Below, one piece after another: positions 4,122 through 20,662 of a stretch of 64,000 nucleotides of DNA. Position 1 is the stretch's first letter; each line of letters starts with the position of its first letter. The notes under the pieces were generated by a model, which saw only the letters and a program-made list of their open reading frames with translations, did not search any database and was not told the DNA's origin. The translations under genes were made by a program, and so were the position numbers. Source of the DNA: Paramacrobiotus metropolitanus (taxonomy: Eukaryota; Tardigrada; Eutardigrada; Parachela; Macrobiotidae); NCBI RefSeq assembly GCF_019649055.1, contig NW_026570248.1, positions 186,001 to 250,000 of the forward strand, read 5' to 3'.

Positions 4122-4127
4122 CTGAAA
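4122..4127. repeat. Left target site duplication CTGAAA
   Basis: CTGAAA sits immediately outside the left inverted repeat and is repeated in the same orientation immediately outside the right one at 20657-20662. The exact match flush with both ends marks one insertion event with a 6-bp stagger. Confidence 0.8.
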
Positions 4128-4393
4128 TATGGCGTACCAAATACCTCACCCCCGTAAACCTTAAAACTTAAAACTCAGACCACTAAAACGTAAAACGTAA
4201 AACACAAAACCGTAAAACGTAAATCACAAAACCGTAAAACTCAAAACACAATACCGTAAAACTCAAAACTCAGAATCGTAAACCTCAGAACTCAGAATCG
4301 TAGAACTTGAAACTGTAAAGTGTAAACTGTAAACCATGAAACACGAAATCGTGGTTTTCGTGGACTTAAAAAAATTTTCACTTTTCAGAGTTC
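4128..4393 (+). repeat. Left terminal inverted repeat
   Basis: This segment matches the reverse complement of 20376-20656 almost end to end, from the outer TATGGCGTACC to CTTTTCAGAGTTC at the inner end. Its middle is low-complexity, built of variants of AAAACGT, AAAACAC and AAAACTCAGA; the inner 60 bases (around GAAATCGTGGTTTTCGTGGA) are non-repetitive and well matched. Similarity stops sharply at 4393. Confidence 0.9.
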
Positions 4394-4619
4394 AGTTATG
4401 ATCTGTTCGGCTCACCAAACACTGTTCGGCCCACCAAACAGCAGGATCAGTGTGTCAACGTTTACCAGCCATTCATTTTTTCGCGTTTCAGTTTTTTCTG
4501 AATTTGTAAACGTGTTTTTTTAAGAATGAATTTTCTGGAACTTTCTGGAATGAATTTTAGTTGTCTGGATAGTTTTCTAATCTGTTGGGAATTTTTTTCG
4601 TTTGGGAAGTAAAGAAATG

Positions 4620-6155
4620 GAAGGCATCGAGCGGCAGCAGTTGATGGAGTATTACAATATTCGCCAAAAATCCGACCGAAAGCATTTCGCACGCGGGAAA
4701 GCGTTTTCGTCGGCGCCTTATCGCGATCTCTTTGCTGTAAGGTGTTGCCAATTGCGCGCTTTTTGATTTGTTTTGCATTGAAACAATTTAAAATGCATCG
4801 GTTTAATTGTTGAAGCGCTTTTTTTTAAAGAATTTCCTAGAGCGTTTCTCAATCATCTCATCAAACTTGCATATTTTGCAATGTTGAAGTAATATACGTA
4901 CCCGTACAGTCCTTCTAATTAGCATTCCATAGATTTAAGTAATTTATAATAATCGCAAAATAACGATGCTTGTCATTACAGACGTACATCGCGCTCAGCG
5001 AGAAGCACCAAAAGGCCGGTCTGTTCAAGCGCGAATAGTGGTAAGCGGTTGTGGTTTTCTAGCCATACCATTAGTATCGCATTTTGTATTTGTGTCTTGG
5101 CAGAAGCTCATTTAGTGGTTTTCTGATAGGTAATTGAAACCGGCCTGGATAGTTCATCCCATTACATGCATTTTATCAATTCAATATTCACCGCACAGAA
5201 AATGATACGAGTCTAGAGTATTGCAAATTTGCGACTAATCTTTGTGTAATTTTGTGATCCCCTTGTTTCGAGATTTGTATTGATGATGTTTTGTACTCGT
5301 ATAGAATGTAAAGACTGATGCCTGCATACTTGGCGATGATTCGATACTTTTGCAACAAGCTGTGGATCTGACCGGTGGAATTTATTTCAAAGTGGAACAT
5401 CCCGGCGGCTTGGTGCAGCTTCTCAATATACGCCTTAATTATAATAATACATTCATGTTATGCAGGCATATTTTGCTACCCTTGTTTATTCTGATATTTT
5501 TCAAATCGATACTTATCGGGTCAGGGTAAAAGCCAATACAAAAAAGTTCGATATGTTGGTTGTTCTATCTGTGCTCGTACAGTTGCTGGCTCCGCGATCG
5601 GTACATAAATACAGTCGTAATTGTCGTACACAAATTAATACAGTCGTTTATATCGTAATCTTAATGTGGTGTGAACTGAAGTATTTAAACAGCATCTGGA
5701 TTTACCCTTACCATGCCAAAGTATTATGTGTTGCCCACTTAGTTTATTCGTCATTGATGCCAGCGAACGGAGTAAGATGATGATTCCCGAGAAAGTCCAA
5801 GTGGATTATCGTGCAGCGTGTTTCTGTCACCAGAAGCTTATTGAAGTTGGTTGGGTGTGTTCCGCTTGTCTTTCCGGTAAGTGGAAGTTATTGCGAAGAC
5901 GATTTAAATTTTATGAATGTGATTCATGTTAAGAATCATTTACTTCTGTCGTGATACTGTGAATATATATACGCTGTTTTGCTAATTTTTCTGTACTTTG
6001 TAGTTTTCTGTGCCTTCAGTCCGAGGTGCTCGACGTGTCAGACGACGTTCAAGTTCATAGCTGGTTTGAAAAAGCGGAAACCATTTGACTCTCCCTCGTC
6101 GTCGGTTCCTTCGCCGTCCCCTTCGTCATTAGCACGCGTTCGGACGCGGACATGA
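4620..6155 (+). pseudogene. GTF2H3/TFB4 fragment (TFIIH p34), 5' truncated
   Basis: TFB4 is a core subunit of TFIIH in transcription initiation and nucleotide excision repair. Six exons read in phase: up to 4736, 4982-5040, 5130-5210, 5314-about 5424, 5743-5876 and 6004-6155. They give SRSLCYVHR, VVIETGLDSSSHYMHF, DACILGDDSILLQQA, VDYRAACFCHQKLIEVGWVC and then VFCAFSPRCSTCQTTFKF, matching the von Willebrand-like middle and the C-terminal zinc-finger cysteines of human GTF2H3, with a new basic/serine tail. The first 110 or so residues of the family are absent, with only about 220 bp left before the inverted repeat. No GT donor sits at the end of the 5314 exon (near 5424), and the donor at 5211 is a poor GTCTAG. 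I therefore read it as a captured, decaying copy. It could still be expressed in part. Confidence 0.75.
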
Positions 6156-6775
6156 ATGGACGATCTTAATATGTTATTTCCCTTAATTTTTGTAACTTAT
6201 GATGTTTTTTGTATCTGCCGACGAATTCGATGTTAATAATTTTTTGTGATAGTTATTATTTTAGCTCCGTAGTATGAACGAAAGATGCTATAAACAGGAA
6301 AAGTTCAGGATGTACAATTCAACACAAGCCAGATAAGGGCAACAAAATTGGTTGAAAAAAGTTGAAAAAATGGTACGAAAAAAAAAAAAATCGTACAGTG
6401 ATCTCTGAATGAATGTAAAGTAATGTTACCATAAGCAGTCGCACTGCAGTTTCGCTGTGTGCGAAAGCGGTGATATTATGGCGTGTGTTTCATGTTCTTA
6501 TGAAGACAATTATGATAATTATGATAATTTTATTATGATAATAAAAACTACATTTCTTATGATAGTAAAATTAAAGAAGTTCGCAATATAAATACAATAC
6601 GTAAGTACTCTGTGTGCGCCAGAACTCATCGCGGCTTCGTTTTTTACCTTTGACCTTTCAGACTTTTGCCGTGTCGATCGGGCTTGAATACCGTTTTTTT
6701 CTTACTCGCGTATGTTCACGCGCCCTTCAAAATTGATGCCTACTTAGGCCGCAGCAAATCCAGTCGAGGGGTAGC
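6156..6775. other. Non-coding spacer inside the element
   Basis: AT-rich spacer between the GTF2H3 fragment and the thioredoxin exons. It holds an A13 run near 6380 and short ATGATAATT repeats around 6515-6540. A pyrimidine-rich tract and AG near 6750 may be the acceptor of the thioredoxin exon. No other gene seen. Confidence 0.55.
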
Positions 6776-7398
6776 ATGGAGCGTCTTCTAAGCACAGCGC
6801 GGAATGACCTCATCATTGCTGAATTCTACGTCAACTGGTGCGGCAACTGCACGAAGATCGCCCCTGCCTACGAGGAGATGGCTCAGAAGTACGGCAACAA
6901 TGCCCAGTTCGTCAAGGTGGACCTGGACAAGACGGGCGATATCCATCCTGAGTATGGCGTGACTTCCACTGTGAGTGTGCGATTGCCGTTTTAGGTCGAT
7001 GGTTTGTGTACCCTGTACAGTTTATTTAAAACGTAAGTACAATTTGTTCTGTTAGGACTAAATTCCTGTGATCAAGAATGGAATCGTGAATTGCGAATTA
7101 TTATTTACACGAAGAACACAATTTATAGGTTTAAATGCATGAAATGGCCGCAGTTGGTTCGAAGTTCAAACAGATTAAGTTTAAGTTTTTCGTAAACAGA
7201 TTAAGCTTCGGTTTTAGATTTTTATCAAGCTTTGCGTGTTGCTCCGGTCGCATTCCGTACTGTGCACTTTCCGTTATAGCGACCTTTGTTGTATATATGC
7301 AGCCCACCTTTGTCTTTATCAAGAATGGAGTGGCTATCGATCGGTTCCAAGGATCTAACGCCAGGATGCTGGAAGCCGCCATCCAGCGACACGTCTGA
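6776..7398 (+). CDS. Thioredoxin-like protein, CGNC active site
   Basis: Two exons, 6776-6970 and 7303-7398, join in phase 0 (donor GTGAGT, acceptor TGCAG) to give about 96 residues. The frame is open upstream to about 6749, so a further 5' exon or an upstream start is possible. Order of features: the beta strand before the active site (IIAEFYVNWCGNC), KIAPAYEEMAQKY, VKVDLDK, then PTFVFIKNGVAIDRFQG with the cis-proline and the final strand. This is a nearly complete thioredoxin fold, but the usual CGPC is CGNC, so redox potential may differ from classical thioredoxin. It lies inside the transposon, next to the GTF2H3 fragment on the same strand, and may be a captured host gene. The intron carries no other feature. 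Confidence 0.65.
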
Positions 7399-7968
7399 AG
7401 TGACCTTTGCCATAGGTGGATGATTCAAAATCTTTTTTCTGGTAGTGGTGAGTTTGTCGCGGTGTTACGGTGAGAATGTCGCAGTCCTTGTGTGTCAATC
7501 TCAGTTTAAATTTGACTGGAATCTGGATTTGTTTTGTCGCGGAAAGGGTGGATTTCCTATCGTGTGAAAAGTTACTAAATTGTGTAAGTTGGACTATTTT
7601 AGATGAATGACAACTGCATTGAGATGAGAACCATTCACAAAAATTTTATTGTTGAGACACCACAAAACGAAAGTTCATGCCACCAGTTCTACAATAAATC
7701 CGAAAACCATCGAGAAACAGGCTAAACAGAAAACATAACGTATAAATGATTGGGAAAAATTTTAAAAAATAATACTGAAAATATTTGGGAGAAGTAAACA
7801 TAGAAATGCGCATGAAAGATCAAAAGCATTCAGAAAAGCAAGCAAGCATTCATTCTAAAAGCACTCAAAATTTCAAAACTGCAACGCACACAACATACTC
7901 GTGCATGCATCCAAATCAGCCTGTCATCGCAACACGGCAGATAAGAAGGATCATCTCCCGCATAAATG

Positions 7969-9866
7969 CTAATGAGAGTGCGGATTAACAGCAGGGTTTC
8001 TTGCTGGTTGCTTGTCGACGCGGCAGCGCTGCCGTACTCCGACCAGCTCGTCCACGGGCCGGCGCGCCCCCCTACCACTTTGGGTGCCTCCCCGCCGGCT
8101 TCCCCCTGACGAATTGGATTTTCCTCCAGCGTTGATCCCGTGAATGACCATACGCCCTATATTCGACGACGCTCCCTGTCCCCGCGAGGCCGCTTCCTTG
8201 GACGCAACATCCGGTTCCATAATAGCCTTGTAGATAGAAAACATAAATATCAAAGGAGCTGCTGTGAGCAGCACGGCAATGATTACATGATTTATACTGT
8301 ACGATTCCGTTAATTTACAGAACAACAAAACGCTGCTAGTCTTTCAGCCTTTCGGACTCGAAAAATAACCAATAACGCAATTTCAATCTGAATAACGCAA
8401 CCCCACTTGCCTGATTTGCCGGTTTAGGATACTCGTTTCCGTTTGTGTTTACGGTTCCGGTATCATCATCGTTCTCGCCTTCGCGCCGGCCAATTAGTTC
8501 GTCTTGCCTGCAAGCAGAACATAAAACAACCATACAAATATTGGCGCAACTACTCTAGAATGACACCTCCAAATCTCCATTACGTACGTGTGCGGTTTCA
8601 CGCCTCCGCAACTTTTATGACAGGTCTGATGCGTTGGTCTGAAAAGTTTGAAACCCGTCGAAATACCCAACGAAGAAATATATGGAAAATCATAGCTACA
8701 GGTGAGCATTCGTTATTCATTTTTTAGCAGTTTTCTGTACAATTCACGGAGTATTTTATCATGCACGCTGGATTCTGGGTTCTGATTTTTCCCAGTTGTA
8801 CAGTACAGATTAACGCATGTTAAGTAATTCAACGTTCGCAAGCCAGATAGAACGCCAGCATTTACAGGCCAATTTTACCTTCTCTCCTCCACGACATCCA
8901 CATTATCAGTTTCACTGGACGTCGAAGAGGACAAACTGAAATCGCTGGCGCTCGGCTTTAACATACTCCTGCAAAAGTTTCCATATAACACGATCATAAC
9001 TACTGCCAGCTCACGCAATGCTTCACATCGGCAAACTTAATTTAAAAAAAGACTCATCACAGGGTACAATAGTTGCATACTTGCGTGGAAATATTCCAGC
9101 GGATTTGGGACATACGGGTTTTGTCGGCCTTAAAGGAAAAACGACAATTCAACCGAAAAAGCCATCAAAGCACGAAGAAAAGGAGTAAATACCAAGTGAG
9201 CTGCGGCTCTTGCTTCAGTGTTGCACGTTGAGCAGGACATGACTTACGCTTCAGCGGGGATGGCTTTTTCGGAGATGACTTCGATCGTCTTGGTCTAGAA
9301 CAGCGTTGCAATTAGATGTACAATATATACACGCGCATGCTGTCACGACGGAGGATCGTAACATAATGCCGAAAATTATGCATCCAAATACCGGTACTTC
9401 TATGCTGCTTGGCGCAGTTTTTTCAGTTGTTGTTTGGCGCAGTTTAGTACAAATGCAAAAGAATAATAAGGAATAAAGTTAATCCTCACCTGTGCGCCTT
9501 AGTTCTGCGTTTCTTCCAAACATTCACATTTCCTTTGTTCCTTCCGCGATATTTTTCATCCGCATCGGATTCTTGGCTACAACATAGCTAAACTCGCAGT
9601 GCTACACTGTTTTAACAACAGCTGTCGCTTACACTTCTTCTTCGTCGCTCATTTCCAAATCGGTATTGCAGCTACTGTGGTTAATCTACTACAAACTAGA
9701 AAAAAAGCAATCACTGCACTCAACCGATTAACGCATTCCTGACGCACTCATCTTACAAATTTCCCCGAGCGCCGACGCACTTGCTGCCACGTCCTGGGTG
9801 TCAGGGCCACCGTGTACACACCCACCGCCGGGATGAGCAGCGTAAAAGCTTTAAAGAACAAGCATA
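7969..9866 (-). CDS. Unrecognised multi-exon gene with membrane segment
   Basis: Several short exons on the minus strand have good splice signals but no family I recognise. Going 5' to 3': about 9760-9860 (hydrophobic ICLFFKAFTLLIPAVGVYTV in one frame), about 9617-9660 (acidic TDLEMSDEEE), 9490-9577 (basic WKKRRTKAH), 9249-9292 (KSSPKKPSPLK), 9105-9148, 8880-8966 (serine-rich, SDFSLSSSTSSETDNVDVVE), 8413-8520 (QDELIGRREGENDDD) and a last exon at 7969-8328 with a membrane segment (VIIAVLLTAAPLIFMFSIY) and a Gly/Arg/Ser-rich tail. The intron after 8413 has a GC donor, CAG|GCAAGT. Not all junction phases agree, so this may be two genes or a decaying captured one. The Gly/Arg-rich tail after a membrane segment vaguely recalls SELENOK; I do not claim it. 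Confidence 0.4.
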
Positions 9867-9887
9867 TGATGTAGCTATATTGGAGGC

Positions 9888-10618
9888 ATGACCTTATCGC
9901 ATTATTTCCCGGACGTCCAGGGTACGGGCATTATTTTTTTACTAGAGGACACCTTTTTCGTTTTAGGAAATGTGCAAGTATTAGCAATCTGCGACTGCAA
10001 TCGTAACGGTCGCTATACTGGCACTTTTGGCGGCGCTGTTTGCATTTCTGGTGGACAGATGCGCATCGATATTACATGCTTTCCCTTTATTTTGATCTTC
10101 AGTTGAGAGTGCGGGTGTGAGTAAATTTTTTAACGTAACCTTAGCGCTAGATGAGCATTAAACTGTTATGTTTTTATTGATAATGTAAATTCCGCCTTGC
10201 GGCACTTAAACATGAAAGTAGCAGTCAACCATACAGTAATCGCAAAAATATTGGTCGAATAACGGAAGGCATTTCATCAACACCATACGCAGAAAGTAAA
10301 ATGTCAGCAGCTCAGAAGCACTCAAAATGCTCATAAATACGGCTTCGAGTTCAAATTAACAAGAATAAGACATGAATTTTACAGTACCGTCTCATTTCAC
10401 TGCATCGCCTGTGCATAACTTCGCAAGAGTTTACTAATCATAGAAAATGTTGTCTCTAAGAAACTCATTACATAACCACCCATTTCGCGGCGTTATCGAA
10501 ACAGCTTGTACAGCATCCCAAGACGACTTATTCCAATTCAACATCTCCCATATCTGACGAGTATTCCGTTATTCCGCAACCTTCCGTCATATGGTTACAG
10601 ATTTAGCTGACCTCGAAT
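9888..10618. other. Spacer with one hydrophobic plus-strand frame
   Basis: At about 9992-10103 the plus strand encodes a hydrophobic stretch (ATAIVTVAILALLAALFAFL) in a frame without an ATG after a stop; it may be a leftover exon or chance. The rest, 10110-10618, is AT-rich and should include the 3' untranslated region of the HECT gene. Confidence 0.35.
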
Positions 10619-13600
10619 TCACTTCAACTGCATCAGTCCAGACATCGAACTGCCCATAGATGCGATGCACTCGCGCACCATTTCCAATAGTTTTTCCTTA
10701 GAAGGACAGCCAGTTGGCAGCGTCAATTTATTGCTGCAGGTTGATGCCACTGGGCGACGTCCTCCATTTCGGCGGTCCGTGAACACCACCTGGATTAAAG
10801 GATCAGCCGGGATAGAGTATGAAGCAGTGATAAAATGGAGAAATTCTCGACGCTCATTGAAACTAAGATCTTGCTTGATAATATCGTCCAGCCAGTTCAT
10901 CATCTCCACTTCCTCGTCAACTCGCGTAGGATCTGCACCTTCTTCGTCATAAGGCACAAATTGTTCCAGTAGATCGTCTTCTGGCGTCAAGTAGCGATAG
11001 ACACACAGTTCGATGAATTTCCATTCGGCTCTAACTTTCATAAATTCCTGTAATTAGAAACGTTATGAAAGAACGTTATGATTTAACAGTAGTTCCATAT
11101 CACACTACATTTAGCGTAAATCTAATAATTAAATTATGTAATAGTTAAAATGGAACAAACGTGCCTGCGCCATCGCACCGGCCAATAATCCATCCAAGAG
11201 ATGCTTCAAATTGAAAACTCTTTTGCCGATAAGTTCAAATTCCGCCATAAACTGACAAAATTTTTCTCGGCCTTGTGACAGTAAGGCAACTGTCTGCAAA
11301 ACGACACTTTTTCAAATGCGCAATGACCCTTTTAAGATTACTGCTGCCATGCTTTACCGGAAATTTCGGATTGTGCTCTGCCCAGTAACGCAGCGCCGCC
11401 TCATTTCCCCAAACAATTTCACCCGTGCCGTGTAGGATTCCTTGAATAATATCACGCACTCCCGGGCTGAACAGATACACATCGTTCACGTCGATTGGCA
11501 AGTCCAGTGCGTAACGAATGGCAGAATTATTGAACCAGTTTGGATACGGACAGCTGTGAATGATCGCCAACCGCAGCAGATACCCAAACGCTTTCAGAGC
11601 TGACTGTCCGTCTTTCGTAACAATGAAAACCGAAGTTATCAGGGTCACATTGCCTTCTTTCTCGAACATTGGTGTGCCAGGTGTGCCAGTATCCGGTAAA
11701 ACGTAGTGCCGAAAGGCTTCCAGCATCATTGTGATGCATTCTTTAAATGGCCCATCCCAGTCCGACGCCCTAAACAATAAACTTCTCTCAAAATCCGATG
11801 CGAGTGGCAAATCGCAATTAACAAAAAAATTAAGATCGGTCAGATCAATGTGAAAGAGAAGACGTATCTTACATGTTATTTAAAAGCCGCAAAACTAACA
11901 TGCCTTCGCCCATTTGCACTTACTCGCCCATTTGCACTTCAAATCTTCCGCTGACAGCCAGTCTGTCAGCATTGTCACAGTAAAACTTGATGAAATTCTC
12001 CACATTCTTTGCGTTTGTATTTGCCGAGATCCAGACGAAGACAATACCCGACTTATACATGGGAACGTTTTTTGTCACCTTGAAACAAAGGCTTGAGCGA
12101 ACGCCATCAATTGACAAAACTTCACCCTGTTCATGCGTAGGGAAATCATCAACTTTCATAAACTGCAATTACAAACATTTTGAATAATTTTGGGTTCATC
12201 TTTTGTGTAAATTAAAAGCGCATCACACCTTCAATGGCCTTTCTTCGCTGATGTCTTCGCCAAAAATATCAATCACTTCTGAGTCGGCATCGTTTGCTTT
12301 CAACGTTTCACTGGAATTATTGCTCATATCCTCCGGATCGCTATCAATGGTGTAGACGCGATTGGTTTCCCCGACACGGCAAACTGATGTATGCACACCA
12401 AAAGAATTTCGTACACGGCGAACCGGCGAGGATAATGGTGATTCATCCATCTCAATGGGAGGTAACTGGGCAGAACGCTGGCGTTCAGCCACCACTGGTA
12501 GCGACGGCTGTCGGCGGCCAGAAGTCGATGGCTGGCAATCATCGAATCCATCATCTAAACGGTAGCATGGTTAGGAATAAAAATACACAAAACCTCTTGC
12601 CGGTGCATTTTTTCATTTACCAGTTATTTCGCGCAATCCCAACTCACTGACAGTTTTGCCCAATGACTGCAAAAGACATTAATTTAAACAGCGACATACA
12701 GTTGCATATAGTTTTCAAAATTATTACATTTGCATATCCAACAATTGTTTCCCATGGAATGGTGATGGTGCCTTCCGCTGGCGCAATTAACATTCTCCGG
12801 CAGGCTTCGTGGACTGGTGGCTCTTCGGTAAACCTAGTAAAATACAAAAATTGCACGGAACACGATTATGTCATCATGTAAACCATTTTGCCCATTTTTT
12901 CAAATTCATGCTTCAACGGCTATTAGAGCAACAACGTTTATACACGTACATATCTGCAATCTTCCACGATGGCGACGTAACTGCTAAATAGGACGGATGC
13001 AGATGATGTCCATCAAACTTTCCGTTCACAAATACGCGGGTCAGTAACGTCCAATTACGGCCACGAAGTTCTGCGCAAAATTCTTGAGAAATCTTTGCCG
13101 CAATATGCACACCGCTAAGCTCTTCAAATACGACTTGCTTAATGAGCCCAGCATGTTTCATGAAATCAATCTCCGCTTGATCCTCTCTGAAATTTAACAG
13201 ATAAGTGGACACTAAAGAGACCGAAAAGGACATTAATTCTGATACTGTTTTTTCGATCTTACCGCATTCTTTTGTTTGGAATAACATTGCCTTCCAACAA
13301 GCGGAAGCAATACACTTTCACGTATAACTTCCAGTTCATCCGAGGTATTTCCATTATATCTCCCGATGCCAACTGTCCACCCATTGATGCCGACTGTCCG
13401 CCTGCCGGAGATCGAAAGCTATCCATGCACTGTCGCTTCGGTAAGCTACCGCGAGCACGCCCACCACGTGCCGGTCGTGGCATCGGCGGCGAAGACGCAG
13501 CATGCGGATAGCCGATTCCGCCTGGCCGATGTCCCGGCAGTCCTTGCACACCGCCGCTAAATCCGCCTGGCCGATGTCCCGGCAGTCCTTGCACACCGCC

Positions 13601-14065
13601 GCTGATTCCACCTGGTCGATTTCCCGGGAATCCTTGCACACCGCTGCTGATTTCCCCAATCGACAATCCTCGTTGGACTTGAGGTTGGTGGACCATTCCC
13701 GGTCGCTGCATTCCAGTTGTACCGAAACCGGGCTGCACAGTGCGGTATGGCCCTCCAGACAATGGTAGTGCAGCATTCCCGGATGGTATCACTGCTGCAG
13801 CAGTCGACAGCTGACCCACACTGCCGGTAACGTTCTGTATCCCTCCCGCTTCGCGCTGGTTGTCGGAACGTCCGGCAAGAGAAACGACCATCTGGTTGAC
13901 CTGTGGTTCCACATTGTTGATCAGGTGATGGATTCCAACGTAATGATCACACCTGCATTTTGTATTCCCTTGTGTCGCGAACGAAAGATCAATCTCATCC
14001 CGGGACGGGATGCTGCACGCACATCCCGCAGCTTTGCACTTATAATTATACGGCAGCTCGGCCAT
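10619..14065 (-). CDS. HECT-type E3 ubiquitin ligase-like protein of the transposon
   Basis: Nine exons: 13263-14065, 12950-13186, 12728-12833, 12621-12666, 12229-12554, 11924-12162, 11358-11769, 11165-11251, 10619-11047. All phases agree and the sum is 2,685 nt (894 aa). Start chosen at the ATG of MAELPYNYKC. The N-terminus (about 9-47) has a Cys/His cluster (CKAAGCAC ... KCRCDHYVGIHH), a likely zinc site. Residues 141-184 are three collagen-like 15-mers (GGVQGLPGHRPGG). A Ser/acidic region contains VIDIFGED, resembling a SUMO-interacting motif. The last 350 residues resemble a G2E3-type HECT domain, ending PVASTCSNKLTLP with the putative catalytic Cys near 856, 38 residues from the end, the normal place. 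The intron after 11165 seems to use a GC donor. HECT domains transfer ubiquitin through that Cys; substrates are unknown. The intact frame in an element carrying decayed fragments suggests selection for function. Confidence 0.8.
13521..13655 (-). repeat. 45-bp coding repeat, three copies
   Basis: CCTGGCCGATGTCCCGGCAG recurs at 13521 and 13566, with a diverged copy at 13611, so the period is 45 bases (15 codons). It encodes the Gly/Pro-rich collagen-like 15-mers of the HECT protein. In-frame copy number could vary between element copies. Confidence 0.9.
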
Positions 14066-14614
14066 AGTACGAAAAGTCTCGCAATAACCACAAAATTTTA
14101 CTCTACAAATCAGTCCTCACATCAGTTTTTGAAACTGAATTTAAAAAAGCGCAACTGATTCCGCCTGCACTAAAAGACTGCAAACCGGTTCGCTCTCACG
14201 GTTTTCATAGCAGGCGTGGCCAACGTGATGAACGGTGGTCAATGTTGGCCAATGAGCATGAGCATACAGCAAGTTCTGCCGGTATGCTGCGATAAAGTCT
14301 TTATCATAAAGACTTGCGGCCCGCGCTTTGGCGGTGACTCAGACCCTTATAAACCTTTAAATTTAATTGTTAATTACTGTTATACCGCTGTCCTTTGTAG
14401 TTTTTCGCCGATTTACTTCAGAATCATTTAGCCAAGATCGTTCAACAACTGCTCATGCTACACCCACAAAGTTAAGAAATCCACAAAAATCGATTAATTA
14501 CTACAATATTAATGTTCCCACACATTTCCCCAAAAGCTGAAACCATTCACCACGTTTGGTACCGATGCATATTTATATACCGGTAGTCTGTTCTCGTAAG
14601 TCCTTTTCACTTAC
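14066..14614. other. Spacer upstream of the HECT gene
   Basis: No coding signal was seen. The interval must hold the promoter and 5' UTR of the minus-strand HECT gene and whatever lies downstream of the fimbrin fragment. The next fimbrin exon expected by homology (after VRDWILL) is not present here. Confidence 0.5.
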
Positions 14615-15471
14615 AATAGCAATATCCAATCGCGAACACTGCTGTACAATCCGATCCCCTCCGCATCAATTGGTAGGATGTGCTTTAAATCTGGATCATT
14701 TGACAAATTTCTAAAACTTCATAAGGTTCGTAATCAGACAAACTTGGTTATTTAGCGCAACGAGTATATATATGTATCTACGCACCAGTCAATCCAGTCG
14801 GAAAAGGCCAACTGCTCTTCCACACGGATATGTAAAGTAACATACATTTCTCAAATTCAAGTCGCCTTTAACCGATTTCAAATTGCATAACCAAACTACC
14901 AGGATTGTAAAATAAATTTACTACATATTCATGAAGTAGAAAATTTTGTTTTGTGACCTCACTTTAATAACTCGAAGGAAAAAACAACAAGAGAACTTCC
15001 GCTATTTTTTCCGGTGGATGAAAACTGCTTTATCAGACAAAGTCAAACGTCTCCCGCTCAAACCTAATATGTGATGGTGCAAATTTTGCTTATAATCACT
15101 GCATGAATTATATACCGAGTGGGTTGTTCCTTCCACTGATGCCTGCGACATTCCCCCATGCGTTTTCAGGTTTTCCCTTTTATTGATCATCTTTTTAAAA
15201 GTTGTGGAAACTTCCATGGATTTCAGTTTTGAACATAACTGTTCAAAATAGCAAAGTAGGCAAAAGCATCGCCAAAATCTGCTGTAAGTTACGTTCATAC
15301 ATCTTGAAATTCTTGAACAGACAATTTTCCTTTTCCCACTGGCTGCTTGGAGTTTTTGTCAAAATCCTCAATCATCTTCCGCACTTCCCAATGTGGAATC
15401 TTGAAGCCGACAGCATCTAATGCATTTTTCATTTCAGCAGCTTCTAAGAAACCATTTCCGTTTTCATCAAC
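14615..15471 (-). pseudogene. Fimbrin/plastin fragment (EF-hands and start of CH1)
   Basis: Fimbrin bundles actin filaments through two EF-hands followed by four calponin-homology domains. Exons seen: 15301-15471 (EF-hand loops DENGNGFLEAAE and DKNSKQPVGKGKLSVQEF), 15116-15238 (linker KLKSMEVSTTFKKMINKREN and ending EGTTHS), 14786-about 14829 (RVEEQLAFSDWID) and 14615-14710 (NDPDLKHILPIDAEGIGLYS). The order and wording match the insect fimbrin N-terminus. Exon 14786-14829 lacks an AG acceptor; joining it to the next exon by the visible GT/AG pair creates a stop codon; and the conserved DG of the CH domain reads DW. The start exon and everything after the first third of CH1 are missing. It is best read as a captured, decayed gene piece inside the transposon. 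Confidence 0.75.
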
Positions 15472-15934
15472 CTGTAAAATAAATTGCAACGTTCATAAGG
15501 TTCCAGTACTCCAGTACATATTTCCGAAGGTTATTATGGTTTTATATCACTGCCGGTATGCCATTCCGCAAATACCTGTGCATGTACATGTTTAGTTAGA
15601 CTAGAGGAGCTCAGAATTTCAGTAGTTTTGATCGTATCCCAGAATAAATTTTAGAAAATAAACTATGATAATCGTTCAGTATATGTACAGTATGTTCCGT
15701 ACGCCGAAAAGCTCGTATAGTTGCCACAGGTCGTACAGTTACTTATTTCAGTTACAATAAATAAACTATAATAAGCGAGCCGTATTTGTTATATGTACTT
15801 CGTAAAGCTCGTACGGTTGCTAAAAAATTTATCAAGTGTAATTTCAGTCTCGTACTTTCAAAACGTTACTGCTTCCACTGCAGATAAAAAAAACTTACAA
15901 ATAAACAGAATTATGTTAAACAATCAACTAATCC
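15472..15934. other. Spacer
   Basis: AT-rich sequence between the fimbrin fragment and the 184-codon ORF, with no ORF or motif I can support. No first EF-hand-proximal exon of fimbrin was found here. Confidence 0.5.
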
Positions 15935-16489
15935 TTATTTAAACATGCTGTTTTCCAGTTCGCGGGCATACTTGTCGATACCGGCCCCTCGTCCGTAATA
16001 ATCCGTATCGCCGGTCTCATAACTGTTCCCCTTTCCCACGGTGCCTCCGCCCATAGAGGCCATCGGCTGCGCACCGGCGTCTGATTCGTAGAACGAATCA
16101 TCCACATTCGGTGTATACATGGGAAAGTTCACCGTGATATCCATGGAACCGAATGAATTAGGCGGCCGTGGTGGCAGCGGCATCTGCGGACCGCGGTGCG
16201 GATCGTTCTCGTACTGGGAGAAGTTGGGTTCGGATCGTTCTCGTACTGGGAGAAGTTCGGTGGGTGCCCGCGGGCACCCACCCGGGCCACCGCGGGCGGG
16301 TGCCCGCGGTGGCCCGCGTGGGTTGGGGAGGCTGATGGCCACTTTCTGGTGCGCTTGCTGATTGGCCATGGAGTTGTACATGGCGTCGCAATTGTCCGAG
16401 TACGGATCACGCACCTGACCACTTCCGGTGTTGGCGCTGTAACTCCGGGTAAACATGGCCGGATTCTCGAGGGCGGTGCCATCGGCCAC
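15935..16489 (-). CDS. Unrecognised Gly/Pro-rich ORF, about 184 codons
   Basis: One open frame on the minus strand, open further upstream to about 16570 without an ATG; the first in-frame ATG is internal (AMFTRSYSANTG). Composition is Pro/Gly/Arg-rich in the middle and polar at both ends (ending YARELENSMFK). No domain recognised and no membrane segment. The middle coincides with a GC-rich palindromic block (16261-16315) and a 32-bp direct duplication (16199 and 16231) that is out of frame, so the same DNA is read as VRERSEP in one copy and QYENDP in the other. That argues against long conservation of the middle. It may be a transposon gene, a captured piece, or spurious coding produced by GC-rich DNA. 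Confidence 0.4.
   Translation of the reverse strand: MADGTALENPAMFTRSYSANTGSGQVRDPYSDNCDAMYNSMANQQAHQKVAISLPNPRGPPRAPARGGPGGCPRAPTELLPVRERSEPNFSQYENDPHRGPQMPLPPRPPNSFGSMDITVNFPMYTPNVDDSFYESDAGAQPMASMGGGTVGKGNSYETGDTDYYGRGAGIDKYARELENSMFK
16261..16315. repeat. Nested GC-rich perfect palindromes
   Basis: TGGGTGCCCGCGGGCACCCA (16261-16280) is a perfect 20-bp palindrome. Next to it, 16284-16297 (GGGCCACCGCGGGC) pairs perfectly with 16302-16315 across a 4-base loop. The block is about 85% G+C inside an AT-rich element and should extrude strong hairpins. Confidence 0.95.
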
Positions 16490-17465
16490 AGGCGCGGCGG
16501 TGGTGGTATTTGTAATTATATTCGTAATTTCCGAATTGGATTTCCTTGATACTCTAGTGATATTTATACACTAAAACTAAAATATCAATAATTCTTGGTC
16601 TAGTTACCCCTCAAAACTTGCTGATATCAGTATACCTTGCTGATACCTATGTGATCGTAAATTTTTCACGACGTGCAATAATGAAGAGCGAAACCATCTA
16701 CCAAGCAAAGCGCATTTCGAAAACAGCAGTCTCCTTACTGACGCTATATTCTTTAGAAAAAAAGTTAACATGTTTTCTCCCTACTGCTATTGCAACGGTA
16801 GCAGTCAATAATCGAAAAATAATAAGCATTTTTTCACGCCAGAATTCACTACCACCTTTTGTTTGTAATGCAGTATTTGGATCGCAACTGCAAAAGTTTC
16901 GCATGATTAATTAGCACTGCGAAGGGATCGTCTATATCCTGCTGTACATACATACATTCACATTAATTTTGCGAAATAAACTCGAGAAAACCACGCCTGA
17001 CCCACATCGTCATTTCAATAATGTGCCAAAAAATGTCGCAAATTTGGTGTTTATATATTACCAGTGTCCCCCACCCATACCGGGGTAGACAATGAGTCAA
17101 CCTCTCTGACACAAGAAGGTAATCCAAATTCAAACCACCCAGAAATTTCAGCCAGGTAAATTTACTGAATTAAACAATCTACAGCAGCAATACCGACAAC
17201 ATGTTCGCACTTCTACGGTAAATGTTGGCGAACGAAGGAAAATTCGAATTGTTTCTCTCAAACAACAAACGAAAACGCATTACATACTATTTGGTTCTGT
17301 AATTACAGACAGACAGAATTAAGCTAAAAAATTACAACACTCGAAATATTAAACCTCTAATGCCTCTTTTCCGGTGCCAATTTTTATAAAGAAAGCTAAC
17401 AATCAGAAGACACAAAAAATAACCTCCTTATCTCCAACAATAAATTACCGACACACCTGCAAATC
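16490..17465. other. Spacer between the small ORF and the integrase gene
   Basis: AT-rich. The ORFs on both strands near 16618-16914 overlap each other and have no recognisable content. It should include the 3' UTR of the integrase gene just below 17466. Nothing else seen. Confidence 0.5.
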
Positions 17466-19297
17466 TCAACCAAAATGATGCTCAACCAGGTCCTTCGCAG
17501 CCTGAAATAACCGAATGCCATAAAACCCATCTTCTCCCATCGGATCAATATTTTCCAATATGAGCTGTGCCTCTGCCGGAAAACTGCTGATTATGTCGAA
17601 TACGGGAACAGAATCTCTAGAATGTGCAGCATAGTTCCGAATATACTGTGGAAAGTCTTCTGGCACGTCAACGTTTTCGTCTGGCAAAGGGTCATCAACC
17701 GCAAGGACTTGATCCAAAGGAAATCCTTTCAACCCTTTCTCCATGCAACCAAGGAGGAAAACTTGTCTAGGGGATTTCTCGTGCTCCGTGCGGAGTTTAT
17801 GATTATTGAACAGATTAATAAACTGGTCCACTTTATCTTGAATTCTGCGCTGATATACTAAATGCAAAATCATCATATCACGTGGGCTTGTAATGTTCAG
17901 AATCCCCATGTTCTCCATGTAAATAAAAACCGTCCGAAAAAGCTTAATCACCACACGCCCCAAATCTCTCCAGAGGCGTTCAATCCTTTGGTTATGAACA
18001 GATGGTCCCATTATGATGCTACCGCGATCCGGCCCCATGTAGTGTTCCATCCATCTCGCAACTCCGAAATTTTCGCCTAAAAAAATTAAATAATTTTAAC
18101 TTAACGCTAAAATTAAAGGAGAAATTGTTTCGTATTCTGATAACAAATATCAAGCAACAATTACCTCCACAATCACTCCTTACTCGCGAAGGAACGCCCC
18201 ACGCTTCCGCACCGTTCAGAAAGGCTTCCAGCACTGTAGAAGCACGATTATTCGTGGCGACACACAATGAGATTACCAATCTCGAAAATCCGTCAATGAT
18301 ACCATGAATAACAAAACCCCAGCGAACCAGTTTGTGGTTGCCATCAATGTGCCATAAAGCATTCGGCCCGGCGTTGGAGTATTTTCTTCGCGGCACAAAA
18401 AGAAAAAATCTGTTCGCTACGCCGTAAGGATCCAATCGACGTAACGAGGACAAAACTTTATGGCGTTGAATCATTAATCCGCCGGTTTTCAAATGACCAA
18501 TGACGAAACGAGATCCAACTCCTGGAAACGAGTCCATAATTTCTCGCACTAATACGTCCAGGTCGGCTTCACTGATTTCAGAATGCTACAATAATCAAAA
18601 AAAATGTTTTTTACCAAATAGTAATTAAAAACACTAATCACTGCTTTAAAGTTAAAGTTAGTTAAAGTTTAAGAAACTAATCACTGCTTTTAAGTTAAAC
18701 CTGTTTACGGTAATATAAAAATCACGAACTCACCTTATAATTCAGGCCAGCTTCGACCAGTCTCCTTTCGATCGTACATTTTGAAACCCGAAAAAATCCC
18801 GCGATCTGCGACAATGTAAATCCATCCGCACGGAATGCTGCTAAATCTTTTTCCGGTATACTAATTTTTCCGACAGAATTCGTCTCTGGGGCGAAATCAA
18901 ACATTAAGTCCATTCCATTTTCATCCTCCCGCAATAACAGCCGCAATCTATTCGTGCAGTCCATAAGAACGTCAAATAATTCTTCGGCTTCAAATATCAT
19001 TTCTTGGGGAAAGTTTTCACAGATGTCTCGCGTATACCTGAAAATAAACAGCAAACCAAAATTTTGGAAATCTAAAAATTCATAACAAATTACAGGTTCA
19101 ACGTACCCCATTAAATACTCTATCTGGGTCAGAGCTCCATCAATACCATCCTCATCAGCTTCATTTGAGTTAATCAACCGCTCAGCTCGCCTTACGACGC
19201 TGTTCGCAAAAATGTAAAACTGATCCATTTCATGCGAGTTACTGACGTTCAACAAAAGATCCGACGATTTTCTCCTCAAGTAATTGCAGCGTGACAA
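17466..19297 (-). CDS. DDE integrase of the transposon (rve-like core)
   Basis: Four exons, 19107-19297, 18734-19037, 18165-18585 and 17466-18076, join with matching phases to 1,527 nt (about 508 aa). The first exon follows an AG and starts in an open frame, so an upstream 5' exon probably supplies the ATG. Order: N-terminal helical region, a helix-turn-helix (LAAFRADGFTLSQIAGFFRV), then the catalytic core with WHIDGNHKLVRWGFVIHG (first Asp, about 246), VRSDCGGEN (second Asp, about 303) and HNQRIERLWRD (Glu, about 338). The 34-residue Asp-Glu spacing fits a DD35E-type integrase. This IDGNHK-type integrase is known to me as a stand-alone integrase-core protein in fungal and invertebrate genomes; it is not the Polinton type. 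It is the likely recombinase of the element. The intron at 18586-18733 carries a 43-bp direct repeat. Confidence 0.85.
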
Positions 19298-19900
19298 CTA
19301 AAAAATGCAGAATGCGTTACGAATCCGTTACATATATACACGCAAAAAAGTATAACAAAATTCGACGTGCGAGAAAAAAAGAATAAAAGCTACCAGCTCC
19401 AGCAACACCGCACTACATGGAAACTGTTAAGCCCATTATGGTACAACTGGGCAATAAATTTTCAGCCTACCAAATCCCAATCAAAAATTTTGTCGCACTC
19501 TCTGGTCAACACATGTCTATATGCACGGCGTAAACCACAAACTAGCCTGAATTAACTACATACTATAAAGCAAAAAGAAAAAAACACCGAACCACTCAGC
19601 GAGTCTGCGCCAGCTGCGCGAGGAAGCAATGTGATGCGTTCCAGCTCTTAAAATTCGTGCAAAGTTTAAACACAACAAAAAATTCCTTGTTCTATGATAG
19701 AAACACGCATTAAGATCAGTTGAACACTTCGGGTGTTGACCACTCTTATTCGTTTAAAAGTAAAGTCGTTTAAAAGTAAAGCTGATTGCAAAAAAAATGC
19801 CCATAAAAGAAAATTAGGCTTACCGTTGACGGTTGACGCTTACAACCCAGACGCTCACAATCCCATCCGACCTGACCCGTGAGATGTTTCCTCCAGCATA
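19298..19900. other. Spacer upstream of the integrase gene
   Basis: AT-rich with a short tandem repeat CGTTTAAAAGTAAAG at 19751 and 19767. It probably contains the 5' exon and promoter of the integrase gene, but no convincing first exon could be identified. Confidence 0.45.
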
Positions 19901-20326
19901 TCAACACAGATCCAGAATAATCGAGGCATCCCTTCTATCTGACAGTCTCCACTCTTCTATTATTCCATCAAGGACGGTCTGCTGCTTAAAATCCAATCCG
20001 ATTATGATGCCTTTGGAGCAGGCACAAGTGCGCTGAGACCCTGGAAACACTGCGCACTGGAAGGCTTCCGACGAGTCTGTTTTCTCCTCGACCATCACGC
20101 GCTGGTGCTCCAGCGGCGAGATCTCTGGATGGGCACAGAGTTCTGATCCGTATAGCAGATGAAACAACAAAATTAACAGCTCTCTCCTTTGGCTTGATAA
20201 AAGAAACGCTTCAGATAATAAGATTTGGAAGACACGCTGCAACAGCAAAATTTTGCATAGCAAAGCAAAAATAAACGGTAGTTCCACCAACGCCAAACCA
20301 ATTCCAAAGCCACCGCCAAATTCCAA
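19901..20326 (-). CDS. Unrecognised ORF near the right end of the element
   Basis: A 141-codon minus-strand frame. The first half is hydrophobic (LPFIFALLCKILLLQRVFQI); the second half reads like a folded domain (EISPLEHQRVMVEEKTD, FQCAVFPGSQRTCACSKG, LDGIIEEWRL). I do not recognise it. It could be the first part of the integrase gene, another captured fragment, or chance. Confidence 0.25.
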   Translation of the reverse strand: MEFGGGFGIGLALVELPFIFALLCKILLLQRVFQILLSEAFLLSSQRRELLILLFHLLYGSELCAHPEISPLEHQRVMVEEKTDSSEAFQCAVFPGSQRTCACSKGIIIGLDFKQQTVLDGIIEEWRLSDRRDASIILDLC

Positions 20327-20375
20327 TAATTAGATATAATTCCATTAATATTATTGGAATGGCATTGTGGAATTG

Positions 20376-20656
20376 GAACTCTGAAAAGTGAAAATTTTTT
20401 AAGTCCACGAAAACCACGATTTCATGTTTCATGGTTTACAGCTGCAAGTTCTATGATTCTGAGTTCTGAGGTTTACGACTCTGAGTTCTGGGTTTTACGG
20501 TATTGTGTTTTACGTTTTAGCTTTTTACGTTTTACGTTTTGGTGTTTTACGTTTTACGTTTTAGTGTTTTACGTTTTGTGTTTTACGTTTTACATTTTAG
20601 TGTTCTGAGTTTTACGTTTTAAGGTTCACGGGGGGTGAGGTATTTGGTACGCCATA
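20376..20656 (-). repeat. Right terminal inverted repeat
   Basis: The reverse complement of this segment matches 4128-4393, including the outer TATGGCGTACCAAATACC and the inner GTGGTTTTCGTGGACTT block. The low-complexity middle differs in the number of AAAACGT-like units, which accounts for the 15-bp length difference. Similarity ends at 20376, next to an AT-rich inner flank. Confidence 0.9.
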
Positions 20657-20662
20657 CTGAAA
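20657..20662. repeat. Right target site duplication CTGAAA
   Basis: Direct copy of 4122-4127 immediately after the right inverted repeat. Matching flanks on both sides indicate one 16.5-kb insertion rather than two independent short elements. Confidence 0.8.

Follow-up and report, generated by a model that had tools for sequence, protein, structure and literature searches.

The window, that is, the whole stretch of 64,000 nucleotides analysed here (C28:186001-250000 of a 170-Mb tardigrade genome), contains an element of 16,529 bp at positions 4128-20656. The terminal sequences of this element are TATGGCGTACC..GGTACGCCATA. Its terminal inverted repeats (TIRs) have arms of 267 and 281 bp that are 79% identical, and a degenerate tandem repeat of about 22 bp makes up the bulk of both. 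Because the arms are only 79% alike, the window copy is not young. The inverted ends of about 270 bp with a flush CTGAAA on both sides, which the first-pass annotation had described, were recovered to the exact coordinate. A search of the same genome for the joined flanks with a single CTGAAA returned the occupied locus as the sole match and no empty site. The ends and the two genes of the element are as follows.

4122-4127, unstranded: left target-site duplication (TSD) CTGAAA, flush with the element
4128-4393, plus strand: left TIR, with degenerate ~22-bp tandem units inside
10619-14065, minus strand: HECT ubiquitin ligase gene, 913 aa, catalytic Cys875 (PF00632, E 7e-15); 9 exons at 13263-14065, 12950-13186, 12728-12833, 12621-12666, 12229-12554, 11924-12162, 11358-11784, 11165-11293 and 10619-11047
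17466-19228, minus strand: transposase gene, 485 aa, open frame with rva_4 core; 4 exons at 19107-19228, 18734-19037, 18165-18585 and 17466-18076
20376-20656, minus strand: right TIR, from the comparison of the arms
20657-20662, unstranded: right TSD CTGAAA, flush with the element

Relatives in the same genome

The first-pass annotation had proposed searching the genome with the left end, and this search finds other copies with the same ends and different 6-bp flanks, including about a dozen short ones. Ten short copies are two-armed, nearly identical in their terminal 24 bp, and flanked flush by exact 6-bp duplications (TAAGGG, CCGGTA, TTATCT, CCGTTG, GGCATA, GATTCA, AAGATT, ATTTTT, AGGCTA, and CCGGTG). 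The prospect that the terminal sequence occurs mainly as isolated repeats, also raised in that annotation, was checked: the ends do lie mostly in copies of 0.5-0.8 kb, yet these are two-armed with TSDs of their own and are not solo repeats. A detailed comparison of one short copy places it against the right-hand 398 bp of the window element, past the TIR. Since the short copies have two arms and their own TSDs, and one of them shows this subterminal alignment, they are non-autonomous derivatives of internal deletion.

About 20 loci in the genome are related to the transposase. The large elements range from 11 to 24 kb and have TIRs of 170-700 bp, partly composed of tandem units, and the termini TATGG..CCATA are common to the window element and its large relatives. 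Four of these relatives measure 16,728 bp (TSD GACTGA), 11,424 bp (CAGTGC), 14,480 bp (ATGAGC), and 18,937 bp (CGGCAC), and the copies on C121, C85, and C64 have the TSDs GAAAGA, GTGCAG, and TGGTGC and lengths by coordinates of about 24.3, 16.2, and 15.3 kb, respectively. An exact 6-bp TSD is present in 18 of 21 copies (the window element, seven large relatives, and ten short copies), and all 18 are different. The other three are near misses, with five of six positions in C4 and L011 and a 5-bp TATAG in C8. The pieces of the C421 and C45 copies that were covered did not fix their ends. The first-pass annotation considered an exact flush 6-mer unlikely by chance and took it to argue for a single insertion of a TIR transposon. 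The 18 exact flush duplications within one genome confirm the former point, and relatives with the same organisation and other TSDs support the latter.

The copies named C2A, C4, C121, C85, and C64 belong to one subfamily of at least six copies, whose interiors mostly reach 99-100% identity over the stretches that were aligned. C2A and C4 are 99.59% and 99.96% identical in two long blocks and 97% in the TIRs, and their alignment ends exactly at the element ends. Judged by these identities, the C2A/C4-type subfamily moved recently.

Several family members have features of their own. The 24.3-kb member at C121:206497-230768, with GAAAGA on both sides, apparently has two transposase regions, possibly from an internal duplication or a nested insertion. 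The member at C8:2384186-2398471 has flanks that share only the 5-bp TATAG, and its end recurs in more than 30 short repeats elsewhere. A compact relative of 4,573 bp at C86:256388-260960 has TATGCC ends, the TSD CGTACG, and a transposase that is 44% identical.

The transposase and the HECT gene

The best Pfam match of the transposase is the rva_4 integrase core (E 2e-74), which is far better than rve. The catalytic triad is D223-D280-E315 (DD34E), and an HHCC pattern, sought in residues 1-222, is absent. All eight elements examined retain the D-D-E residues. The first-pass annotation had reported an integrase and no polymerase B; the rva_4 match and six-frame Pfam scans free of polymerase B agree with both statements. 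A 118-aa stretch of the transposase found no relative among IMG/VR viral contigs, and a PDB sequence search with the transposase and the HECT protein found none at the cut-offs used. Splicing in both gene models was set by eye; one of the HECT introns would be of the GC-AG type.

The HECT domain is nearly complete, covering positions 13-299 of the 306 in PF00632. Its catalytic cysteine lies in the C-lobe within TC(S/T/N/F)N, which 8/8 elements examined retain; six of the eight also retain an N-terminus rich in Cys and His. The transposase and the HECT gene are common to the five relatives compared, and both frames are open in the window copy. A HECT gene is found in all eight large elements examined (window included), even though their transposases are only about 70-76% identical. 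Moreover, nearly all of the roughly 20 transposase loci of the clade have a HECT match 3-9 kb away. The placement of the HECT gene varies by subfamily (same, opposite, or upstream), and the pairing with the transposase is thus older than these rearrangements. No HECT match was found in the compact 4,573-bp relative on C86, which suggests that HECT was either gained in this clade or lost outside it. Where silent changes are not saturated, pairwise dN/dS comes to 0.10 and 0.11 (transposase) and to 0.34 and 0.10 (HECT); saturated pairs were left out, and the C2A-C4 pair is too similar to judge. These values are signs of purifying selection on both genes. A search of the literature, limited to open-access papers while Repbase or Dfam may catalogue the pairing, found no paper joining IS3EU with HECT.

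Host DNA inside the element

Six captured blocks comprise 7,890 bp, or 48% of the window element, and come from at least five host loci. They are collinear with these loci at 83-91% identity, and their ends are abrupt inside the element.

4689-9681, unstranded: captured block, introns included, with pieces of Tfb4 and thioredoxin-domain genes; 84% identical to host C1:1999056-2003997 (reverse)
5305-5440, plus strand: captured Tfb4 (TFIIH subunit) exon fragment, limits approximate (PF03850, E 8.6e-8)
5738-5876, plus strand: captured Tfb4 exon fragment, limits approximate (PF03850, E 6.8e-15)
6800-6968, plus strand: captured thioredoxin exon fragment, limits approximate (PF00085, E 2.5e-13)
9683-9844, unstranded: captured SLC6 (SNF) transporter gene fragment; 91% to host C101:219376-219536
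9954-10063, unstranded: captured fragment, donor transporter-like by eye; 83% to host C42:945347-945462
14490-15810, unstranded: captured fragment with an EF-hand exon at ~15301-15471 (minus strand); 91% to host C15:1640412-1641726
15917-16505, unstranded: captured host exon; 85% to C3:2075398-2075938 (reverse)
16517-17231, unstranded: captured fragment, same donor region as 14490-15810 in opposite orientation; 89% to C15:1642797-1643508

As a control, 6.2 kb of neighbouring window sequence outside the element has duplicates elsewhere in the genome only as 50-bp scraps. The C1 region that donated the 5-kb block also exists as a segmental duplicate on C1 (about 79-89% identical), and these two host copies remain homologous past the break of the element's copy. 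A Pfam scan of the whole plus strand of the C1 donor gave no match; the thioredoxin exon sits on the other strand. Element-type ends were sought at the six window donors, and none were found.

Other subfamilies have other cargo. The C4 subfamily has 7.6 kb in total, including a large part of NDUFS2 (E 1e-38), DNA overlapping the start of a PAZ/ArgoL1 exon of an Argonaute-type gene (donor C20:353300-355300), and a block that is 93-95% like C8:2198558-2201208. The best PDB matches of the NDUFS2 copy are animal-type complex I, and the donor genes look animal. A repeat of about 265 bp, with dozens of genomic copies, lies inside a captured block of this subfamily and is missing from the host donor; it looks like a nested short transposable element. 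The C3 element holds further host DNA besides a partial eIF3b-like gene (Pfam eIF2A, E 2e-4). The NDUFS2, eIF3b-like, and thioredoxin copies are interrupted by frameshifts or stops. The captured cargo decays and is not shared between subfamilies. A literature search for IS3EU with gene capture returned a general Repbase paper only.

Interpretation and comparison with known systems

The interval is, with high probability, one autonomous giant cut-and-paste transposon of the IS3EU/GingerRoot type, a Pack-type carrier of host DNA with a conserved HECT gene. Two other readings concern its identity as a single element of this type. A Polinton/Maverick element has a 6-bp TSD, an integrase, long TIRs, and a length of 15-20 kb, so that the size range, the TSD, and the rve-like integrase of the window element would all fit a decayed copy with its polymerase and capsid genes lost. 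However, six-frame Pfam scans of the whole element detect no polymerase B, packaging ATPase, protease, or capsid, and rva_4 far outscores rve. Polintons begin with AG, whereas the termini here are TAT..ATA, and the same two-gene core recurs in the relatives, which leaves a decayed Polinton very improbable. Still less credence is due to two separate MITEs (short inverted-repeat copies) flanking a host region by chance, even though two-armed MITEs of 0.5-0.8 kb are the commonest setting of these ends. Each end of the window element has one arm only, and both ends have one flush TSD in common. In addition, relatives of 11-19 kb are built alike, with the same two genes between their ends and other TSDs, and one MITE can be aligned to subterminal DNA of the window element.

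The origin of the internal DNA may also be read differently. Copying from element to host, or ordinary segmental duplication, could produce shared blocks without any capture, and the host duplicate of the C1 donor region is in line with this. Nevertheless, ordinary host genes (NDUFS2, eIF3b-like, SLC6, and thioredoxin) are the donors or contain them, no element-type ends were found at the six donor loci of the window element, and the homology of the two C1 host copies continues beyond the point where the element copy stops. The concentration of six blocks from at least five places inside one element, the change of cargo with subfamily, and the control stretch free of such duplicates also make an explanation without capture highly improbable. 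HECT genes are ordinary in eukaryotes and the element clearly takes up host DNA, and the HECT gene could therefore be a mere captured fragment with no role in the element. Its presence in 8/8 large elements in several gene orders and orientations, the kept catalytic cysteine, and the signs of purifying selection make this unlikely; the cargo, unlike HECT, decays and differs between subfamilies.

For the preferred reading of one IS3EU/GingerRoot transposon, a mechanism can be proposed. The transposase would bind the tandem units of the long TIRs and, by analogy with the superfamily, excise the element and join it to a staggered 6-bp target. The HECT ligase may ubiquitinate a host or transpososome protein, leading to escape from silencing or to completed repair. 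That it acts against factors of host silencing or repair is a guess, modelled on the TET/JBP genes of fungal IS3EU. Template switching, either in gap repair or in replication of the repetitive element ends, could bring in host fragments, which would then ride along and decay.

More tentatively, and with somewhat more doubt than confidence, the elements may represent an animal IS3EU clade in which HECT is an obligatory second gene, transposition proceeds via the host ubiquitin system, and host genes are captured at a high rate. If true, they would be without known precedent both as autonomous Pack-type IS3EU elements and as DNA transposons that rely on a HECT E3 ligase of their own. The family shows that IS3EU, usually seen as a minor superfamily, can reach 11-24 kb with a conserved ubiquitin ligase and big blocks of host genes. 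The questions opened are how a transposon benefits from carrying an E3 ligase and by what route animal TIR elements acquire host genes. Both are testable in one genome because near-identical copies with precise ends are available.

The first-pass annotation had left the superfamily unassigned and had noted neither the HECT gene nor the host-gene cargo. Described traits of termini, TSD, and transposase place the window element in IS3EU/GingerRoot, since it combines TAYGG..CCRTA ends, a 6-bp TSD, and a DD34E rva_4 integrase without HHCC. Known IS3EU/GingerRoot elements have TA..TA ends, usually 6-bp duplications, and no HHCC motif (PMC10045372). The TATGG..CCATA termini, the 6-bp TSD, and the DD34E integrase-type transposase without the HHCC zinc motif match this description (PMC10045372). 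In contrast, the tardigrade elements reach 11-24 kb with TIRs of 170-700 bp, a HECT gene, and heavy host cargo. Ginger1 and Ginger2 are ruled out by TSD length, which is 4-5 bp in those groups and 6 bp here (PMC10045372).

Fungal IS3EU elements have TAYGG..CCRTA ends and carry TET/JBP and alpha-kinase genes beside the transposase, and a role against silencing has been proposed for the TET/JBP genes (PMC12730594). The window element resembles them in its ends and in an accessory enzyme gene conserved alongside the transposase (PMC12730594). The accessory here is a HECT ligase, and a TET or kinase domain was not found. With Polinton/Maverick elements it shares the size class, the rve-like integrase, and the 6-bp TSD, which is not diagnostic; it differs in the termini and the transposase family and lacks polymerase B, ATPase, protease, and capsid. 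Reported animal Pack-TIRs are mostly hAT and Tc/Mariner, with IS3EU unmentioned; stalling of replication by the repetitive TIR of FB4 and template switching have been proposed for animal Pack-TIRs (PMC8277862). Like them, the window element holds non-TE host DNA copied between the TIRs of one TSD-flanked element, and its TIRs are repetitive as in FB4. In contrast to them, it is probably an autonomous carrier, with six blocks from several loci.
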